From a virus: a DNA stretch of 64,000 nucleotides. Shown here piece by piece: positions 24,461-54,564 of this stretch (its first letter is position 1; each line of letters starts with the position of its first letter). The position numbers were made by a program, and so were the translations under genes. The notes beneath the pieces were generated by a model, which had not been told where the DNA came from, searched no databases, and worked only from the letters and a program-made list of their open reading frames with translations. The stretch covers positions 1 to 64,000 of IMG/VR virus record IMGVR_UViG_3300021389_000018. One strand, 5' to 3'.

Positions 24461-25813
24461 TTACGCCTTAATTAACATATGACGGTTAGCAGCACGAGTG
24501 ATTAAGTTACACTCAGAACGGTAGTGGAATTCCACGTTATCCTTAGTTGCGTTAGACGCACCAAGAACAGAACCGATCATCCAGTGTTCCATTTCACGAG
24601 AGTAGCCGTTAGCAGCTTTGTAGTTCATTTCCAAAGCTGGAGCTTTCTCACCAGTCTTAGCATCAGCGACCTGAGTCATTGGTACAGCAACACCGTAGAA
24701 GTCTGAATCAGCCAACAATGTTGGGTCATTCAACAATTTCCAGTCGTGCTTGTGGAATGTGTAACCACCACGAGCGAATGAGCGGAATCCTAAAGTCAAA
24801 GCAGTATCTGAACTGTTGTTGAAGCTACCAAATGCAGCAGCACCGACAGTAGTCGCAGAAGTACCAGAAGCTAATTGACCAGCAGCCAACATATCATCGA
24901 TAGCTAAGTCTTGCGCACGGTTTACGTAAAGAGCGTACTCAGAAGCAGCACCTTCTTTATCAAATACCTTAACGATGTCATCAACCTCACCGATTGTGTT
25001 GATAAGACCAGACTGTACGATACCACGGTCTTCGATAGCAGCGAAGTAACCTTCAGAACCATCAATATCAGTAATACCAGAAGCAGTTACTTTCTCACCC
25101 AATAACATCATCATTTCACGCTTGTCCATAAAGCGCTGACGAGTATCACCTTCTGATTTCAAGTACCAGCGGTAGTCACCGTTACCCAAGTTGATCCAAC
25201 CGATGTTGGTAGCTTGAGAACCAGTTACGCTGTATACCTCTTTCATAATCATAAAAGGATTCGTGCGCTTAGTGATACCGCTTTCGATGAACTCACCTGG
25301 TTGATCAGAACCTTGAGAGTACAAGTTACCAATAACCGGTACAGAAGCAGAAGCGTTCAATGAAGCAGCAGAGAAACCGTCAGAGCTTAATGCAGTAAGA
25401 GTGATAGCAGCACTAGAGATGCCTGTTACCAAAGCACGCTCAGAACCATTAACCAATACTACGTCTTGTAAGCGAACGATTACAGCAGCAGCAGAAGCAG
25501 CAGTTAAAACTACAGTTGCGTCAGCAGCAGTGATAGCAGCCATAGAACCAGCTTGCTTCTTGTGTAGACGCTCTTCTTCCCAGTACTGTACTTCATCGTT
25601 AGTAGCAACTGCTTTAGTAGCACCTACTAATTGAAGAAATCCAGTGATACCTTGATTTCCGTAAGTCTTAATAAGAGCATCACGGTTGTCTGGTTTGTTA
25701 ACCAAGTCATACAACGAAATATATTTCGCTGCGTCTAATTTTTGCAACTCAAAGTTGTTGCCAGCAGGGTTAGAACCAGCCAACCCATACGTTACATTTC
25801 CTAATGTAGCCAT
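24461..25813 (-). CDS. major capsid protein (HK97-type, putative)
   Basis: The 450-aa product begins with a flexible segment, has an Ala-rich inserted domain near residues 90-160 (AITAADATVVLTAASAAAV), and a C-terminal half with TFHKHDWKLLNDPTLL and NGYSREMEHWMIGSVLGAS. Size, position directly after an acidic scaffold gene and the Ala/Val-rich codon-biased sequence support the capsid call; the ending CNLITRAANRHMLI resembles crAss-type capsid proteins. The fold is inferred, not shown. It is transcribed with the scaffold gene and followed by a very strong terminator. Confidence 0.75.
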   Translation of the reverse strand: MATLGNVTYGLAGSNPAGNNFELQKLDAAKYISLYDLVNKPDNRDALIKTYGNQGITGFLQLVGATKAVATNDEVQYWEEERLHKKQAGSMAAITAADATVVLTAASAAAVIVRLQDVVLVNGSERALVTGISSAAITLTALSSDGFSAASLNASASVPVIGNLYSQGSDQPGEFIESGITKRTNPFMIMKEVYSVTGSQATNIGWINLGNGDYRWYLKSEGDTRQRFMDKREMMMLLGEKVTASGITDIDGSEGYFAAIEDRGIVQSGLINTIGEVDDIVKVFDKEGAASEYALYVNRAQDLAIDDMLAAGQLASGTSATTVGAAAFGSFNNSSDTALTLGFRSFARGGYTFHKHDWKLLNDPTLLADSDFYGVAVPMTQVADAKTGEKAPALEMNYKAANGYSREMEHWMIGSVLGASNATKDNVEFHYRSECNLITRAANRHMLIKA

Positions 25814-27561: not shown

Positions 27562-28104
27562 TTATCTATGCTGATTAAAGTATCCTATGATCTCACTCTC
27601 CAATTTTGAGTCCATTAAATAATTACCATCGTACTCTACACTAGTGAATGTATCCTCATCATCTTCTGTTATTTCAATCTTGTATTCTACATCATTGTAA
27701 ACAACTTTAAAATACTCACTACGCTTTATCATCTTGATATCTTCATTAGAATGAAAGACAGCCTCAACGTCTTTGTGGTCAAGCCCCGGTAAGTTTTTTA
27801 ATCTACATACATAACGAGCGTAGTTATTGCCTTGAGTGTCCACTATGAAGTTTTCTTTTAACGTGGTCATTATGTAAAATTGCTGTTTCTTATCTAACCC
27901 CCCGTAATCAAATCTACCTGTAAATTTAACTAGTGGGAAATCCATAATTACAGTTTTGACATCTTCGGATAACTCACCAAAGTCAACTTCTGATTTTACA
28001 GCTGAAGGCTTTGTGGGTTCTGAGTCGTATGGCAACAACATAATGTCGTAATACAACTTTAGACCTATTTTGTCTTTTATATTTTTAGTCTTTGTCCGTT
28101 GCAT
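27562..28104 (-). CDS. unknown protein of the kinase operon (180 aa)
   Basis: Soluble alpha/beta protein without a recognised motif. Acidic C-terminal half (YKIEITEDDEDTFTSVEYD), no membrane segment. Its start lies 20 bp inside the upstream membrane-protein gene, so it is translated as part of the kinase/regulator operon and is the last of the overlapping series. It is a candidate downstream partner of that module. Confidence 0.55.
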   Translation of the reverse strand: MQRTKTKNIKDKIGLKLYYDIMLLPYDSEPTKPSAVKSEVDFGELSEDVKTVIMDFPLVKFTGRFDYGGLDKKQQFYIMTTLKENFIVDTQGNNYARYVCRLKNLPGLDHKDVEAVFHSNEDIKMIKRSEYFKVVYNDVEYKIEITEDDEDTFTSVEYDGNYLMDSKLESEIIGYFNQHR

Positions 28105-28630
28105 ACTTTACACCCATAATTGTACCGACTATACTAAAGGCATTAGTAAGCAGTATACCGAACATATTAGACCAAGTACTTCCTATGATTTGCGTATCTG
28201 TACCAGAGCCTATTGCCCAAGCGTACATAACTGTAGTTAACACACCTACACCTACAATAACATATAAAGCAACCTTAACTATAGTGCTTATAAGCTCAAA
28301 CTGTGTGCGCTTCTGCATTACCTCTAAATCCTCTAATGCTTCGTCACGCAGCATCTTACTTTCTTCTAGTGAATTCTGAAGCTCTATAACTAAAGCTTCC
28401 TTAATTACAGCTGCCTCTTCAAGCTCTTTGTTTTGCTTCTGTACTTGCTTTGTTATCTGTAGTCTTTTCTTTCTAGAGGATATATCTTTACGCTTACACT
28501 CTTCAATGTATTCTTTAACAACAGGATCAGAGGTGTCTGAAAAAAGCTTAACGAAGTTTCCTTCTATATAAACCTTCTTAGCCTTAGCTTTTAGTATAGC
28601 CTCTTTTACTGTGTCCTTAGAACTTATCAT
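28085..28630 (-). CDS. coiled-coil protein with two C-terminal membrane segments (181 aa)
   Basis: Residues about 45-110 form a charged coiled coil (KKRLQITKQVQKQNKELEEA onward). Two hydrophobic segments follow, about 115-140 (VKVALYVIVGVGVLTTVMYAWAI) and 155-172 (MFGILLTNAFSIVGTIMG). The topology gives a long cytoplasmic N-terminal coil with a membrane hairpin, like a scaffold or signalling partner. Holin-like function is possible but the long coil is unusual for that. Start overlaps the response-regulator stop by 4 bp; the next gene starts inside its end. Confidence 0.6.
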   Translation of the reverse strand: MISSKDTVKEAILKAKAKKVYIEGNFVKLFSDTSDPVVKEYIEECKRKDISSRKKRLQITKQVQKQNKELEEAAVIKEALVIELQNSLEESKMLRDEALEDLEVMQKRTQFELISTIVKVALYVIVGVGVLTTVMYAWAIGSGTDTQIIGSTWSNMFGILLTNAFSIVGTIMGVKYATDKD

Positions 28631-29067
28631 CTATATATTTTAAAGGAATTTGTTTTGTCTTTGTACCCCTTATAGTCTTCTTTAAATTCTTCTAAGCGTG
28701 GCTCAATGTCATCAGACTTAATAATCCAAAACTGTGCGCCTGCTTTCTTAGCTTTTTCTATTTCTTGTTTGTCATCAGAAGATGAGATAATACCAATGAC
28801 ACAGCCATTACCGTATTCAAAATTAATCTTGCGAATCATCTCAATACCATCAAAACTGCTGCCTATAATGTTGAGGTCTACGAATACACATTCGGGTTTC
28901 TCATCGTTAGGGTCATCGGGAAACCACTCTTTAAATTTTTTATCTGCTTCATCAGAAGAGTCTAGAGCCTCTAATGAAAGCGTTATATCAAGGATGCTAC
29001 ACGCATCTTCAAATACCAAGTGGAATAGGTCTTCATCGTCTATAAGTAGTATAGAGTTTATCATCAT
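28627..29067 (-). CDS. response regulator, receiver domain only (146 aa)
   Basis: A complete receiver domain: acidic pair Asp10-Asp11 in LLIDDEDLF, phospho-acceptor Asp64 in CVFVDLNI, small hydroxyl residues in GIISSSDD (95-97) and Lys117 in FWIIKSDD. The protein ends about 25 residues later, so there is no DNA-binding or enzymatic output domain, as in CheY/Spo0F-type regulators that act by protein contact. It overlaps the histidine-kinase stop by 4 bp and the next gene by 4 bp. The kinase upstream is its likely phosphate donor. Confidence 0.88.
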   Translation of the reverse strand: MMINSILLIDDEDLFHLVFEDACSILDITLSLEALDSSDEADKKFKEWFPDDPNDEKPECVFVDLNIIGSSFDGIEMIRKINFEYGNGCVIGIISSSDDKQEIEKAKKAGAQFWIIKSDDIEPRLEEFKEDYKGYKDKTNSFKIYR

Positions 29068-30290
29068 TTTATTTTTATAAGTAGTTTAGTTCCTTGTTGT
29101 TGTTTTTCAGCTCTAATTGTAAATCCGTGTTCTTTCAATATGGCAAGACAGATATTTAACCCAAGTCCAGTACCGCCTTCATCTTGATTTTGTTTTCTAG
29201 TGTAAGGCTTTGACAATTCTACAAACTCTTCTTGAGTAATTCCCCTCCCGTTATCTTCAACGCATAGGGTGTAATCATTCTGCATATATATAGATACAAA
29301 TTTAGTGGAGCTATCGTTGTACTTTAAGCCATTGCGTATTAGGTTATCAATAGCTGTACAGAACAAGGGTTCATTAACTAATAATGATGGAAGCAGTCCT
29401 ATTTGAACTTGTTTTATATATGATGTGCTTTTTAAATAATCGTTTAGTATTTCTGTGATGTTGCACTTTTCTTTGTCTAGCTGTGCATCTTCTTTTACAA
29501 GGTTAGTAAACTCTTTAACGCCAGCATAAACTTTCTGTGTATGGCGCAGCCCCTCTTCAAGCATTCTTAATGGGGCTTGTATTTTTAGTTTTTTAATATC
29601 TTCTTCTGTAATCCTGCGTTTTAAGGAGCTTAAACCTCTAGGCATATATGTGTTGATGCCGCTATGCATATCGTGTCTTAGGATCTTTGCAGCGTGTTCT
29701 AGGTAAGAGTTTTTTTGATTTACTAGAGCTTCAGTCTCGTGTTGTAGCGTTACATCTGTTGCAATTTTTAGCACCCTAGTGTATTCTCCTTTTCTATTCT
29801 TTACTGGAGTGTAATGACCGAACAACCAAATCTCACTACCGCTTTTTGACACACGCTCAAACTCACCACTTAACGTTTTACCGCTTTTAAGCTTTTGCCA
29901 AAAGTTATGATATTCTAAGCTTTCGCTATAATCGGTAGGGACTAGCTTGCTGTGGTGTATACCTTTAGGGTTGTGGTAACCCATAAGATTACAAAACTTT
30001 TTATTCGCTGACTTGATAATACCATCCATATCCATAGTAACCACTATGTTAGAGCTGTCAATAGCTTTCATCTGCGTATTGATATTATCTTCTTTTATTT
30101 TTGCGGAGCTTATATAGCTGTAGACTACGTATCCAAATGGTGGCATAAACGCTATTACACAAGCGTACCCGAATTCAGCTAGTAAGTAAGAGGGTTCACA
30201 GAATCTAAATACAATACACGTTTGCACCGCAAAGAATGCAAACATTATTACAGCAGATACAGCTAGACATATTTTTGATATGCGATTCAT
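29064..30290 (-). CDS. membrane-anchored PAS histidine kinase (408 aa)
   Basis: Two N-terminal membrane segments (about 7-28 and 40-62) have a short external loop between them. A PAS sensor domain follows (about 75-190, with NIVVTMDMDGIIKSANKKFC and GEYTRVLKIATDVT). The dimerisation/phospho-acceptor helix has HAAKILRHDMHSGI with His206. The ATPase domain has an N box DNLIRNGLKYND at about 317, G1 VEDNGRGI at about 345 and G2 GGTGLGLNICLAIL at about 373. All catalytic boxes look intact. It is followed by a receiver-only regulator with a 4-bp overlap and preceded by a holin-like gene with an ATGA overlap. A complete two-component pair inside a phage late operon is unusual. Confidence 0.9.
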   Translation of the reverse strand: MNRISKICLAVSAVIMFAFFAVQTCIVFRFCEPSYLLAEFGYACVIAFMPPFGYVVYSYISSAKIKEDNINTQMKAIDSSNIVVTMDMDGIIKSANKKFCNLMGYHNPKGIHHSKLVPTDYSESLEYHNFWQKLKSGKTLSGEFERVSKSGSEIWLFGHYTPVKNRKGEYTRVLKIATDVTLQHETEALVNQKNSYLEHAAKILRHDMHSGINTYMPRGLSSLKRRITEEDIKKLKIQAPLRMLEEGLRHTQKVYAGVKEFTNLVKEDAQLDKEKCNITEILNDYLKSTSYIKQVQIGLLPSLLVNEPLFCTAIDNLIRNGLKYNDSSTKFVSIYMQNDYTLCVEDNGRGITQEEFVELSKPYTRKQNQDEGGTGLGLNICLAILKEHGFTIRAEKQQQGTKLLIKIK

Positions 30291-30442
30291 TCATTTTTCT
30301 TGCGAAGAAAATACCAGCGTTGTGCTGTATATCCAATAGATATTATAATTAATAACAGCTTTAGAGCCGTTTCAACTTGAGACATAGAAATGCTAAGAGT
30401 TGTAGCGTTTAATAGTAGTACTTTGATATCAGTTTCGTTCAT
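30287..30442 (-). CDS. small holin-like membrane protein (51 aa)
   Basis: Starts at ATG 30442, which shares one base with the upstream stop (TAATG), and ends in TGA overlapping the kinase start (ATGA). The product has a polar N-terminal helix (KVLLLNATTLSISMSQVETA), one membrane segment (LKLLLIIISIGYTAQRW) and a basic tail (RKKNE). This single-span layout resembles short class-III or accessory holins and small membrane proteins in marine podoviruses. A clearer holin exists at 54.3 kb, so this one may act in signalling with the kinase instead. Confidence 0.6.
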   Translation of the reverse strand: MNETDIKVLLLNATTLSISMSQVETALKLLLIIISIGYTAQRWYFLRKKNE

Positions 30443-30732
30443 TACCACTTAGCTTTATTTGCCCAATAAGCAGCAGACATTTTGCCTTTGGCGATATTCT
30501 TACGATGACGTGCTTTGAATGATGCACGTTTCTTCTTCATACGATCAGACTCACCTGCCTTTGGTTTACCAGCTGTGCTTGCACCTTGCTCTCCAAAGCG
30601 TATAGTCTTAATCTTGTCACCTACCTTAGCCACTACAATGTGTGACTTCTTAGGGTGATTGGGAGTACGCTTAGGTTTATTGAACCCGCTTACTCCTGCT
30701 CTTGCTAAACGTGAATCTTTCTTCGCTTTCAT
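30442..30732 (-). CDS. conserved basic phage protein (DUF6321-like, 96 aa)
   Basis: An in-frame GTG at 30738 overlaps the promoter box, so ATG 30732 is the preferred start, giving MKAKKDSRLARAG. The segment HIVVAKVGDKIKTIRFGEQG, then RMKKKRASFKARHRKNIAKG and MSAAYWANKAKW is a pattern I have met in many marine phages (I associate it with DUF6321). It is strongly basic, probably nucleic-acid or virion associated. It is the first gene of the kinase operon and is nearly leaderless. Confidence 0.65.
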   Translation of the reverse strand: MKAKKDSRLARAGVSGFNKPKRTPNHPKKSHIVVAKVGDKIKTIRFGEQGASTAGKPKAGESDRMKKKRASFKARHRKNIAKGKMSAAYWANKAKW

Positions 30733-30737
30733 AGACA

Positions 30738-30745
30738 CAAAGATA
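30738..30745 (-). promoter_or_regulatory. TATCTTTG promoter for the kinase operon
   Basis: Perfect TAnnTTTG on the minus strand, directly behind the T-run of a terminator. The ATG at 30732 begins 6 bases after its last base, so the mRNA would have almost no leader. Confidence 0.65.
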
Positions 30746-30776
30746 AATAAAAAAGGGGCTACATTTCTGTAACCCC
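30746..30776 (-). terminator. terminator, sister of the one at 23.5 kb
   Basis: On the minus strand GGGGTTACA-GAAA-TGTAGCCCC is followed by TTTTTTATTT. Compared with the terminator at 23491-23521 a stem base pair differs on both arms together (G-C against A-T), and loop and downstream TATCTTTGTG are shared. Confidence 0.9.
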
Positions 30777-30804
30777 TTAGTATTCAGTATAGTGTAAGCG
30801 AGTC

Positions 30805-53139: not shown

Positions 53140-53360
53140 TTTTTAGCTCTGTTTCGTTTTGCGCTTATAAATCTTTTCTCTCCGTGGTCATAGTCCATAC
53201 CGTCTCCATTACCGTACTTCCCTGCCTTACGTCTCATCTTATTTAAAAAGGCACGGTACTTCTTACGCTCCTCCGTAGAGTGGTACTTCGTATCGTACTT
53301 CTTTTTCTTCGCCTTCGCCTCTGGGTTGCTGGCGTAAAACTTTGCCGTCTTACCCTTCAT
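53136..53360 (-). CDS. small basic conserved protein (74 aa)
   Basis: Strongly Lys/Arg/Tyr-rich. The C-terminus has KYGNGDGMDYDHGEKRFISA followed by KRNRAKK; the GNGDGxDYDH pattern recurs in marine phage small proteins without known role. The start overlaps the endolysin stop and the end overlaps the basic virion gene by 4 bp, so it is in the lysis transcript. Confidence 0.6.
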   Translation of the reverse strand: MKGKTAKFYASNPEAKAKKKKYDTKYHSTEERKKYRAFLNKMRRKAGKYGNGDGMDYDHGEKRFISAKRNRAKK

Positions 53361-53817
53361 ACGGTAGGTATCTTGTTTTTCCGTTTACACGTACCGCTTT
53401 CAATACTTGATGACGGTTTCTACTGTCTTTCTTATGAGATATATGCACCCAGTCTGGATTCTCATCCGTACCAAACTCCCAAATCAATTGATCAAAGTCT
53501 AGTCTATCTAAAGCATAGTGGAATATATCTGCATTGGTAATCACACCGTATACATCTGCATCTAGGTCCAGCGCTTCACCCTTACTATGCTGAGAAGTTT
53601 TACTTCCACCAATCGCCTCGTTAAGCGCTTCGCTTCTGTAGCCTGAGCTGACAAAGATCGGACACATAAACTCCTCACGAATGGGCTGGAATATATTCTC
53701 AGCTACCGCTTTTAGATTCTCCAAATGATCCACTGTCGGCTCGTTGGCAATCCCTCGCCTCTTCGCAGTAGCAGACTTCGTCACTTCCGCAAGCGAAAGG
53801 TTCTTGGATAGATTCAT
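53350..53817 (-). CDS. M15-family peptidase endolysin (155 aa)
   Basis: Peptidase M15A-like: SSGYRSEALNEAIGGSKTSQ leads to His77 (SQHSKGEALDLD) with Asp84, and the third zinc ligand is His125 in PDWVHISH. These enzymes cleave D-Ala-containing peptide bonds in peptidoglycan. The protein has no signal peptide, so it would need a holin to reach the wall. It follows the u-spanin and holin genes, completing a lysis cassette. Confidence 0.85.
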   Translation of the reverse strand: MNLSKNLSLAEVTKSATAKRRGIANEPTVDHLENLKAVAENIFQPIREEFMCPIFVSSGYRSEALNEAIGGSKTSQHSKGEALDLDADVYGVITNADIFHYALDRLDFDQLIWEFGTDENPDWVHISHKKDSRNRHQVLKAVRVNGKTRYLPYEG

Positions 53818-53893
53818 AGTTGTAATCGCTTAAGTAGTAATGTGTTACAAAAGCAAAGGTAATGAATAAAACTAGAATTATGAGCGCCACCAT
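53699..53893 (-). CDS. possible small membrane ORF overlapping spanin and endolysin genes (64 aa)
   Basis: A different frame opens at ATG 53893 inside the spanin gene end and runs into the endolysin gene. Its first 20 residues are hydrophobic (MVALIILVLFITFAFVTHYY) and would span the membrane; the rest is Ser/Gly/Cys-rich read-through of the endolysin region. The real part may be just the membrane segment in the 60-bp spanin-endolysin gap. It could be an antiholin or an accident. Confidence 0.3.
   Translation of the reverse strand: MVALIILVLFITFAFVTHYYLSDYNYESIQEPFACGSDEVCYCEEARDCQRADSGSFGESKSGS
53854..53861 (-). promoter_or_regulatory. TACCTTTG box before the endolysin gene
   Basis: Minus-strand TAnnTTTG in the spanin-endolysin gap, 36 bp before ATG 53817. 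No -33 box is obvious, so it is weak support for internal initiation. Confidence 0.35.
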
Positions 53894-54294
53894 CTCCCTA
53901 CAATCAATATACACCCGAACAAAACACCGGCTGCTAGTATCAGATCCTTGAACTTATCCCAGAACGTTTTCTTCTCTACGTATACAATCTTATCGTAAGG
54001 AACCTCTACAATACTAATAATCGTATCCGAGTCGCAAATGGCGTCTATAGTAATCGTGTCGTTCACCTTTACTATCTTCACTCTCAGCCTGTCTTTCACT
54101 AGAGTAATAGTATCGTGTTGCTTCAAAGTCACAGTATCCGTGATAGCCACAGGTGGGCTGACAACCGTGTTCGTCACAACCAGCGTGTCTTTTACCAGAA
54201 TCATAGGGTCTTTCTGCACCGCTTTCTTTAAGTGCCATTGAGCGCTGCAACTCGTTAATAACAGCACTAGAGTTAACTTTACCAGCCATTTCAT
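53878..54294 (-). CDS. u-spanin lipoprotein (putative, 138 aa)
   Basis: N-terminal lipoprotein signal with lipobox LTSC (Cys16) after a hydrophobic stretch (LTLVLLLTSC), a Thr/Val/Ile-rich periplasmic middle, and a C-terminal membrane segment (LILAAGVLFGCILIVGRWW). An outer-membrane lipid anchor at one end and an inner-membrane anchor at the other is the diagnostic layout of unimolecular spanins, which fuse the two membranes in the last step of lysis. It lies between holin and endolysin genes. Confidence 0.75.
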   Translation of the reverse strand: MKWLVKLTLVLLLTSCSAQWHLKKAVQKDPMILVKDTLVVTNTVVSPPVAITDTVTLKQHDTITLVKDRLRVKIVKVNDTITIDAICDSDTIISIVEVPYDKIVYVEKKTFWDKFKDLILAAGVLFGCILIVGRWWRS

Positions 54295-54512
54295 TTCTTA
54301 GCAAACTTCTCCAACCCTGCAATACCAAAACTCCCAAGAGTTACTATAACAAAGCTGTTATATGTAAACTCATTGATCGGTAAATCTTTACCCCAAAATC
54401 CACTCATCACATCTGCAATCATTACAATCACCATAACAGCAAAAGAAAGAAAACCTATTACCGTCTTCTCATTGTAGCTATTGTCGTTTTTAAAAATCTC
54501 TAAGAAACTCAT
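54291..54512 (-). CDS. holin (two membrane segments, 73 aa)
   Basis: The frame extends upstream to 54551, but that part crosses the promoter box, so ATG 54512 is taken, giving MSFLEIFKNDNSYNEKTVIG. Two membrane segments follow, about 16-41 (TVIGFLSFAVMVIVMIADVM) and 48-66 (NSFVIVTLGSFGIAGLEKF), with a short charged tail. This fits a class II holin that opens the inner membrane for the M15 enzyme. It is the first gene of the leftward late arm, directly beside the control region. Confidence 0.7.
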   Translation of the reverse strand: MSFLEIFKNDNSYNEKTVIGFLSFAVMVIVMIADVMSGFWGKDLPINEFTYNSFVIVTLGSFGIAGLEKFAKK

Positions 54513-54531
54513 AATCTGTTGTTTAGTTATA

Positions 54532-54539
54532 CAAAGATA
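54532..54539 (-). promoter_or_regulatory. TATCTTTG promoter for the lysis operon
   Basis: Perfect TAnnTTTG on the minus strand, 19 bp from the holin ATG. The 19-bp palindrome (54565-54583) begins 25 bp upstream of the box, covering the place where a -33 element would lie. Confidence 0.65.
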
Positions 54540-54564
54540 CCTATTTCTCATATACCGATTCCCA

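Follow-up and report, generated by a model that had tools for sequence, protein, structure and literature searches.

Most of what is known of environmental sensing by phages at lysis comes from T4-type lysis inhibition. Two accounts of T4 and ICP1 describe environmental control of lysis, with holin T, the antiholins RI and RIII and analogues of these; as portrayed there, T4 works by direct antiholin-holin binding, with no phosphorelay (PMC7182436, PMC11413866). Phage-borne histidine kinases are also on record: among the agr genes of Clostridioides phage phiCDHM1 is a host-derived AgrC histidine kinase, with no response regulator in the phage genome and no obligate membrane effector linked to it (PMC3901668). 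In the open-access literature on phage kinases, regulators and lysis, which leaves most subscription papers outside, this was the closest case to the genes described here; the trio itself is undescribed in that literature, and we found in it no complete two-component system with a described link to lysis.

The locus studied here encodes a histidine kinase (HK), a response regulator (RR) and a small membrane protein, TM181. Like bacterial two-component systems (CpxA/EnvZ-type kinases and CheY-like receivers), it has DHp and HATPase_c domains with H, N, G1 and G2 boxes, a receiver with D10/D11/D64/S95/K117, and adjacent, translationally overlapping genes; unlike them, it is phage-borne, has an obligate membrane partner and has a regulator that lacks a DNA-binding domain. 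With T4 and ICP1 it would share the setting of lysis time by the phage from sensed conditions, via inner-membrane proteins.

The window, i.e. the whole stretch of DNA analyzed, comprises 64,000 of the 65,029 bases of an IMG/VR virus record. Its capsid protein (24461-25813; phrog_13704) is about 33% identical to those of the Flavobacterium 'elemo' podoviruses, with Cellulophaga phages next closest, and the host is therefore probably a flavobacterium. The preliminary description of this DNA had placed a kinase and a regulator in an operon of six overlapping genes between fibre and capsid genes, and the coordinates, overlaps and neighbours all proved correct. The block lies on the minus strand and reads, in order, a 98-aa basic protein outside the trio (phrog_7595; 30442-30738), a 51-aa ATG-start ORF with one predicted transmembrane (TM) segment (30287-30442) that overlaps the HK start by 4 bp, HK, RR, the 181-aa TM181, and P180, a 180-aa accessory gene (27562-28104). 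The successive junctions are TAATG, three times ATGA, and a 20-bp overlap. Tail-fibre-type genes flank the block upstream, and scaffold-like and capsid genes downstream. A terminator-like hairpin, recognized by consensus match only, lies ahead of it (30753-30778, minus strand); a promoter scan gave matches no commoner than in shuffled sequence. Cultured elemo and Panino phages lack the six-gene block and have their portal, scaffold-position and capsid genes next to one another, so that the block looks inserted in the phage group of the window. The capsid/fibre context does not hold for the trio in general, being confined to this podovirus group.

Some neighbouring genes are worth recording in their own right. 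The 98-aa protein has counterparts in Roseobacter phages and cyanophages with identities reaching about 73%, an unusual conservation across phages of distant hosts. P180 occurs in only part of the loci, where it is conserved beside TM181; its AlphaFold model is of fair confidence, and a fold search with it gave no PDB match and only two viral models. Between 31992 and 43828 lie two giant fibre-like genes (1886 and 2055 aa) with many GNVGIGTTSP-motif repeats, the first of which ends, by eye, in a chaperone-like tail.

The HK (408 aa; 29064-30290, minus strand) has a membrane N-terminus, a PAS domain (residues 82-181), a DHp domain with H206 (codon 29673-29675, minus strand) and a HATPase_c domain (residues 310-407), assigned from Pfam and invariant residues. 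Pfam matched PAS_9 (6e-10) and HATPase_c (1.9e-16); the classical HisKA was absent from its matches to HK, and a generic PAS domain was the sole curated NCBIfam model at cut-off for the kinase/regulator pair. Positions H206, N316/N320, D346/G348/G350 and G373/G375/G377 were invariant in a 50-sequence alignment, which together with Pfam bears out the earlier reading of a membrane PAS kinase with all its catalytic boxes (His206, N, G1, G2). By hydropathy, the helix at residues 9-27 was above threshold, while a second one (about 40-62) was so only in relatives, many of which show two TM helices. Other relatives have the two TM helices only (about 293-318 aa), are soluble, or are larger, with GAF-like or extracytoplasmic regions (domain names by eye). 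The sensor region is thus freely swapped among trio loci while the catalytic core is kept, and four loci (L352, L369, L390 and L384) have two kinases with the same DHp beside a single RR and a single TM181.

The PAS domain of the window, compared by sequence with the PDB, matched only MmoS (1.1e-6) and Aer (1.4e-5), both flavin sensors. W131 aligns with a Trp in both proteins and is kept in 49 of 50 relatives. The match and the conserved Trp provide a lead, short of a demonstration, perhaps towards redox or energy sensing by this kinase; many HK relatives, however, carry other sensors.

The RR (146 aa; 28627-29067, minus strand) is receiver-only and matched Pfam Response_reg (PF00072) at 1.2e-7, over the curated cut-off. 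The codons of the predicted phosphorylation site D64 and of K117 lie at 28876-28878 and 28717-28719. D10, D11, D64, S95 and K117 were invariant in the alignment, and phospho-site motifs were present in 77-80 of 80 lineages. The protein is the slowest-evolving part of the trio, with a mean column identity of 84% in the alignment and a mean pairwise identity of 75% over 80 lineages; mean identities were 63% for the catalytic part of HK, and 47% and 67%, respectively, for the N-domain and the membrane part of TM181. The HK and RR genes overlap by 4 bp, as the preliminary description had it, are adjacent in all eligible loci and show correlated distances (r 0.53, p 0.001). Their residues, pairing and co-evolution argue for a two-component system in which phosphate would pass from HK to RR.

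Although the pair is real, its earlier description overlooked an obligate third component, TM181 (28085-28630, minus strand), our proposed effector. It comprises an N-terminal cytoplasmic domain, a coiled coil and TM helices at residues 113-131 and 156-174; in the AlphaFold model, a single long helix continues as TM1, followed by a turn and TM2. Hydropathy gave two TM helices for nearly every complete copy, almost no variation is seen in TM2 and its flank (WSNxFGILLTNxFSIxGTIMGVKY), and the charge distribution predicts an N-in/C-in topology. Because the RR carries no effector domain, for example for DNA binding, and TM181 is its only other universal partner among the trio loci, we propose TM181 as the output of the RR. 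The correlation of RR distances is closer with the N-domain of TM181 (r 0.52) than with the TM region (r 0.31).

To assess how widespread these genes are, we scanned 2.9 million viral contigs separately with HK, RR and TM181, which gave at least 597 confirmed relatives for HK, 295 for RR and 268 for TM181; alignment-based scans gave at least 564 for RR and at least 538 for TM181. The locus set assembled contained 420 sequences (419 fetched IMG/VR loci plus the window), 408 of them with an RR, which reduce to 183 distinct loci; lineages, separated at less than 88% identity, number 88. Every locus with 1.5 kb or more of upstream sequence has HK, and every one with 2.5 kb or more downstream has TM181. 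HK, RR and TM181 form an obligate trio carried by phages, and since the pair recurs in 183 distinct loci, the association is real and not due to chance. Related phages in hundreds of environmental samples keep all three genes, and a more diverse scan, seeded with a cell-borne RR, again recovered the trio. Contigs with the trio reach 430 kb, and among 20 long ones tested, of 32 to 430 kb, Pfam found a terminase on 9. There is therefore a clade specific to phages in which synteny is conserved, far beyond what had been guessed; such a clade had been named beforehand as what would support a dedicated system. Widely differing phages keep the trio, and none of the named ones searched has it: in 50,697 named phage records, RR, TM181 and the 51-aa ORF had no match, and HK had only weak general-kinase matches.

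The cassette has probably been exchanged between phages, as judged by sequence comparison. The window and locus L051 share 98% identity in RR, 99% in TM181 and 95% in P180, yet only 57% in the capsid; conversely, the window's capsid is 98% identical to that of L005, yet HK is 79% and P180 62% identical. In the HK+RR tree, podovirus-like and T4-like contexts are mixed within one supported clade of 18 rows.

Genes around the trio show a strong enrichment in lysis functions. Neighbour families were assigned with Pfam and PHROGs (PF05105 holin, Amidase_2 with PG_binding, Peptidase_M15_3, Glyco_hydro_19 and phrog_33083-type endolysin), and in 87 lineages 42 genes of lysis families lay at most three positions from the trio, vs. 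a mean of 21.8 in shuffled data (maximum 35 in 5,000). As these families had been chosen from the loci themselves, we ran a repeat that compared all 146 proteins encoded at most two positions from the trio with the 146 encoded at a distance of five to seven positions. The near set was headed by families of endolysins, chitinases and holins, none of which was in the 25 commonest far families. A GH19, M15_3 or PF05105 match was present in 20 of 40 whole records (52-430 kb); 14 of these 20 had a lysis gene at most 5 kb from RR (2.35 expected), or 10 of 16 after related records were merged (1.9 expected), statistics that are indicative as the records were picked mainly by length, partly with neighbours known, and include kin.

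Individual loci illustrate this linkage. In L345, L352, L378, L385 and L401, a distance of 0-15 bp separates the end of the TM181 gene from an endolysin gene that follows it, and in L352 (2166-8163) a GH19 endolysin and a Pam3 gp28-type holin (PF23987) come directly after kinases-RR-TM181. Locus L148, of a clade different from that of the window, has the gene order DUF5675-f6-f22-HK-RR-TM181, f22 being the family of the 51-aa ORF and f6 a family of small membrane proteins. In the cultured Flavobacterium phage immuto, a stretch without the trio carries f6, endolysin and holin genes of the same families, and annotation assigns the endolysin and the holin to lysis; homologues of f6 thus accompany endolysin and holin in immuto and neighbour the trio in other phages. 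The window itself is an exception in distance. Its recognized lysis cassette (53350-54551) is 24 kb from the trio, on the same strand, and consists of a Peptidase M15_3 endolysin (53350-53817; Pfam 9.9e-18, phrog_894), a probable u-spanin of 138 aa, read by eye, with a lipobox-like LTSC near its N-terminus and a C-terminal TM (53878-54294), and the 86-aa holin-like f6 (54291-54551), all on the minus strand. Several other trio lineages have no recognized lysis gene nearby. The early suggestion that the pair could time lysis gains genuine support from the enrichment of endolysins and holins around the trio.

TM181 resembles phage holins (PF05105 and the PF23987 Pam3 gp28 type) in its two TM helices and its frequent position directly before an endolysin, but differs in its long coiled-coil cytoplasmic domain, and true holins of those families occur beside it. 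It had no holin family match in Pfam, PHROG holins or the PDB, and a fold search matched nothing useful. The holin-like setting, a small two-TM protein near an endolysin, is found in part of the loci only. Many trio phages encode a separate holin, so that TM181 need not be one; it may be a holin, antiholin or trigger, and as it fits no described holin family we have not filed it as a holin.

We think it reasonably probable that phage-encoded phosphotransfer controls TM181 and, through TM181, the timing of lysis. The HK, tethered to the inner membrane, would sense the state of the infected cell (perhaps redox or energy for the PAS type of the window) and pass phosphate from H206 to D64 of the RR. 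Having no output domain of its own, the phosphorylated RR would bind the cytoplasmic N-terminal domain of TM181 and change its oligomeric state through the coiled coil. The two-helix membrane domain would then advance or delay permeabilization of the inner membrane, with TM181 being itself a holin under regulation or else an antiholin or trigger for a separate holin, and the phage could in this way tie lysis time to conditions.

Lysis genes and the trio could share the late region for other reasons. The trio might alter the envelope or behaviour of the host late in infection (surface, gliding, stress response), with TM181 as an inner-membrane signalling protein. This would account for loci that have no lysis genes nearby and where the trio's neighbours are genes for fibre, capsid, baseplate or nucleotide metabolism, and the unusual conservation of the RR is what one would expect if it also bound a conserved host protein. 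However, the enrichment is specific to lysis genes, rather than to late genes generally, and a universal phage partner in TM181 makes a host target unnecessary; we regard this explanation as rather unlikely. Superinfection exclusion or protection of the cell, where the kinase senses envelope damage or a second phage and TM181 changes permeability and blocks entry, appears quite improbable to us. Such a device would fit with the many kinase copies that are anchored in the membrane and expose little outside the cytoplasm, with an effector that is a small, conserved membrane protein, and with the link between exclusion and lysis delay in T-even phages. The linkage to endolysins and holins is nevertheless better explained by lysis, and known exclusion proteins show no similarity to the trio in Pfam or PHROGs.

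Recent capture of the pair from a host, as a two-component system with no phage function, can be considered extremely improbable. HK and RR domains as such are ubiquitous among bacteria, but hundreds of viral relatives exist, with RRs 77-98% identical to that of the window, and the active-site motifs are kept over deep divergence. By strict search patterns, 84,980 bacterial and archaeal species contained only two trio-type loci, and not the close host pair devoid of phage relatives that would have spoken for capture. One (L191) is a trio of the phage type, and its contig belongs to an unclassified MAG. The other (L192; 5709-9090), the only clearly cellular copy, is in a Bacteroidetes MAG with cellular-looking neighbours, and just 1 of 197 genomes of the same family has the locus. 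It is nested among viral rows in the HK+RR tree (midpoint-rooted for drawing only), as sister to L342 with 100/93 support. Scarcity in cells and viral nesting lead us to reject a host-derived pair, as far as the collections reach.

The cellular copy also bears on the role of TM181. It encodes a soluble multi-PAS HK, an RR and a third protein of 349 aa, in which the TM181 N-domain (residues 1-110) runs on into a histidine kinase domain that takes the place of the TM helices. Because the N-domain is here joined to a second kinase, we take it to receive the signal of the RR; the simplest reading of these sequences is that it is an RR-responsive input whose outputs are exchangeable. More tentatively, the trio could represent a widespread phage lysis clock run by His-Asp phosphorelay, in which swappable kinases, two in some phages, feed one strongly conserved receiver that gates TM181 as an effector of a new class, and from which a bacterium took the module, a kinase replacing the membrane output. 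If true, viruses would have a new means of timing host killing, through a complete phosphorelay equipped with a membrane effector. The three genes, with their defined active sites and swappable sensors, provide an experimental handle and make lysis-timing theory testable in environmental phages.

Small membrane ORFs are found directly 5′ of HK, often overlapping it, in two families, f22 (11 lineages) and f4 (23 lineages; e.g. L026:9707-9991). Neither matched any known protein family, including DUF2892, for which Pfam gave f4 no support; they may be part of the sensor or of the lysis machinery. Among the genes at most two positions from the trio, two matched Pfam Bac_rhodopsin (E 3.7e-14). A neighbour that is driven by light or senses it, if real, would be of interest; the two proteins read as candidates for rhodopsin input turned out to be a glycosyltransferase-like protein and a kinase. 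Lastly, in L123, L125 and L131 the gene directly 5′ of HK encodes a protein of 123-129 aa with a signal-like N-terminus, a coiled coil and a C-terminal TM, spanin-like by eye.
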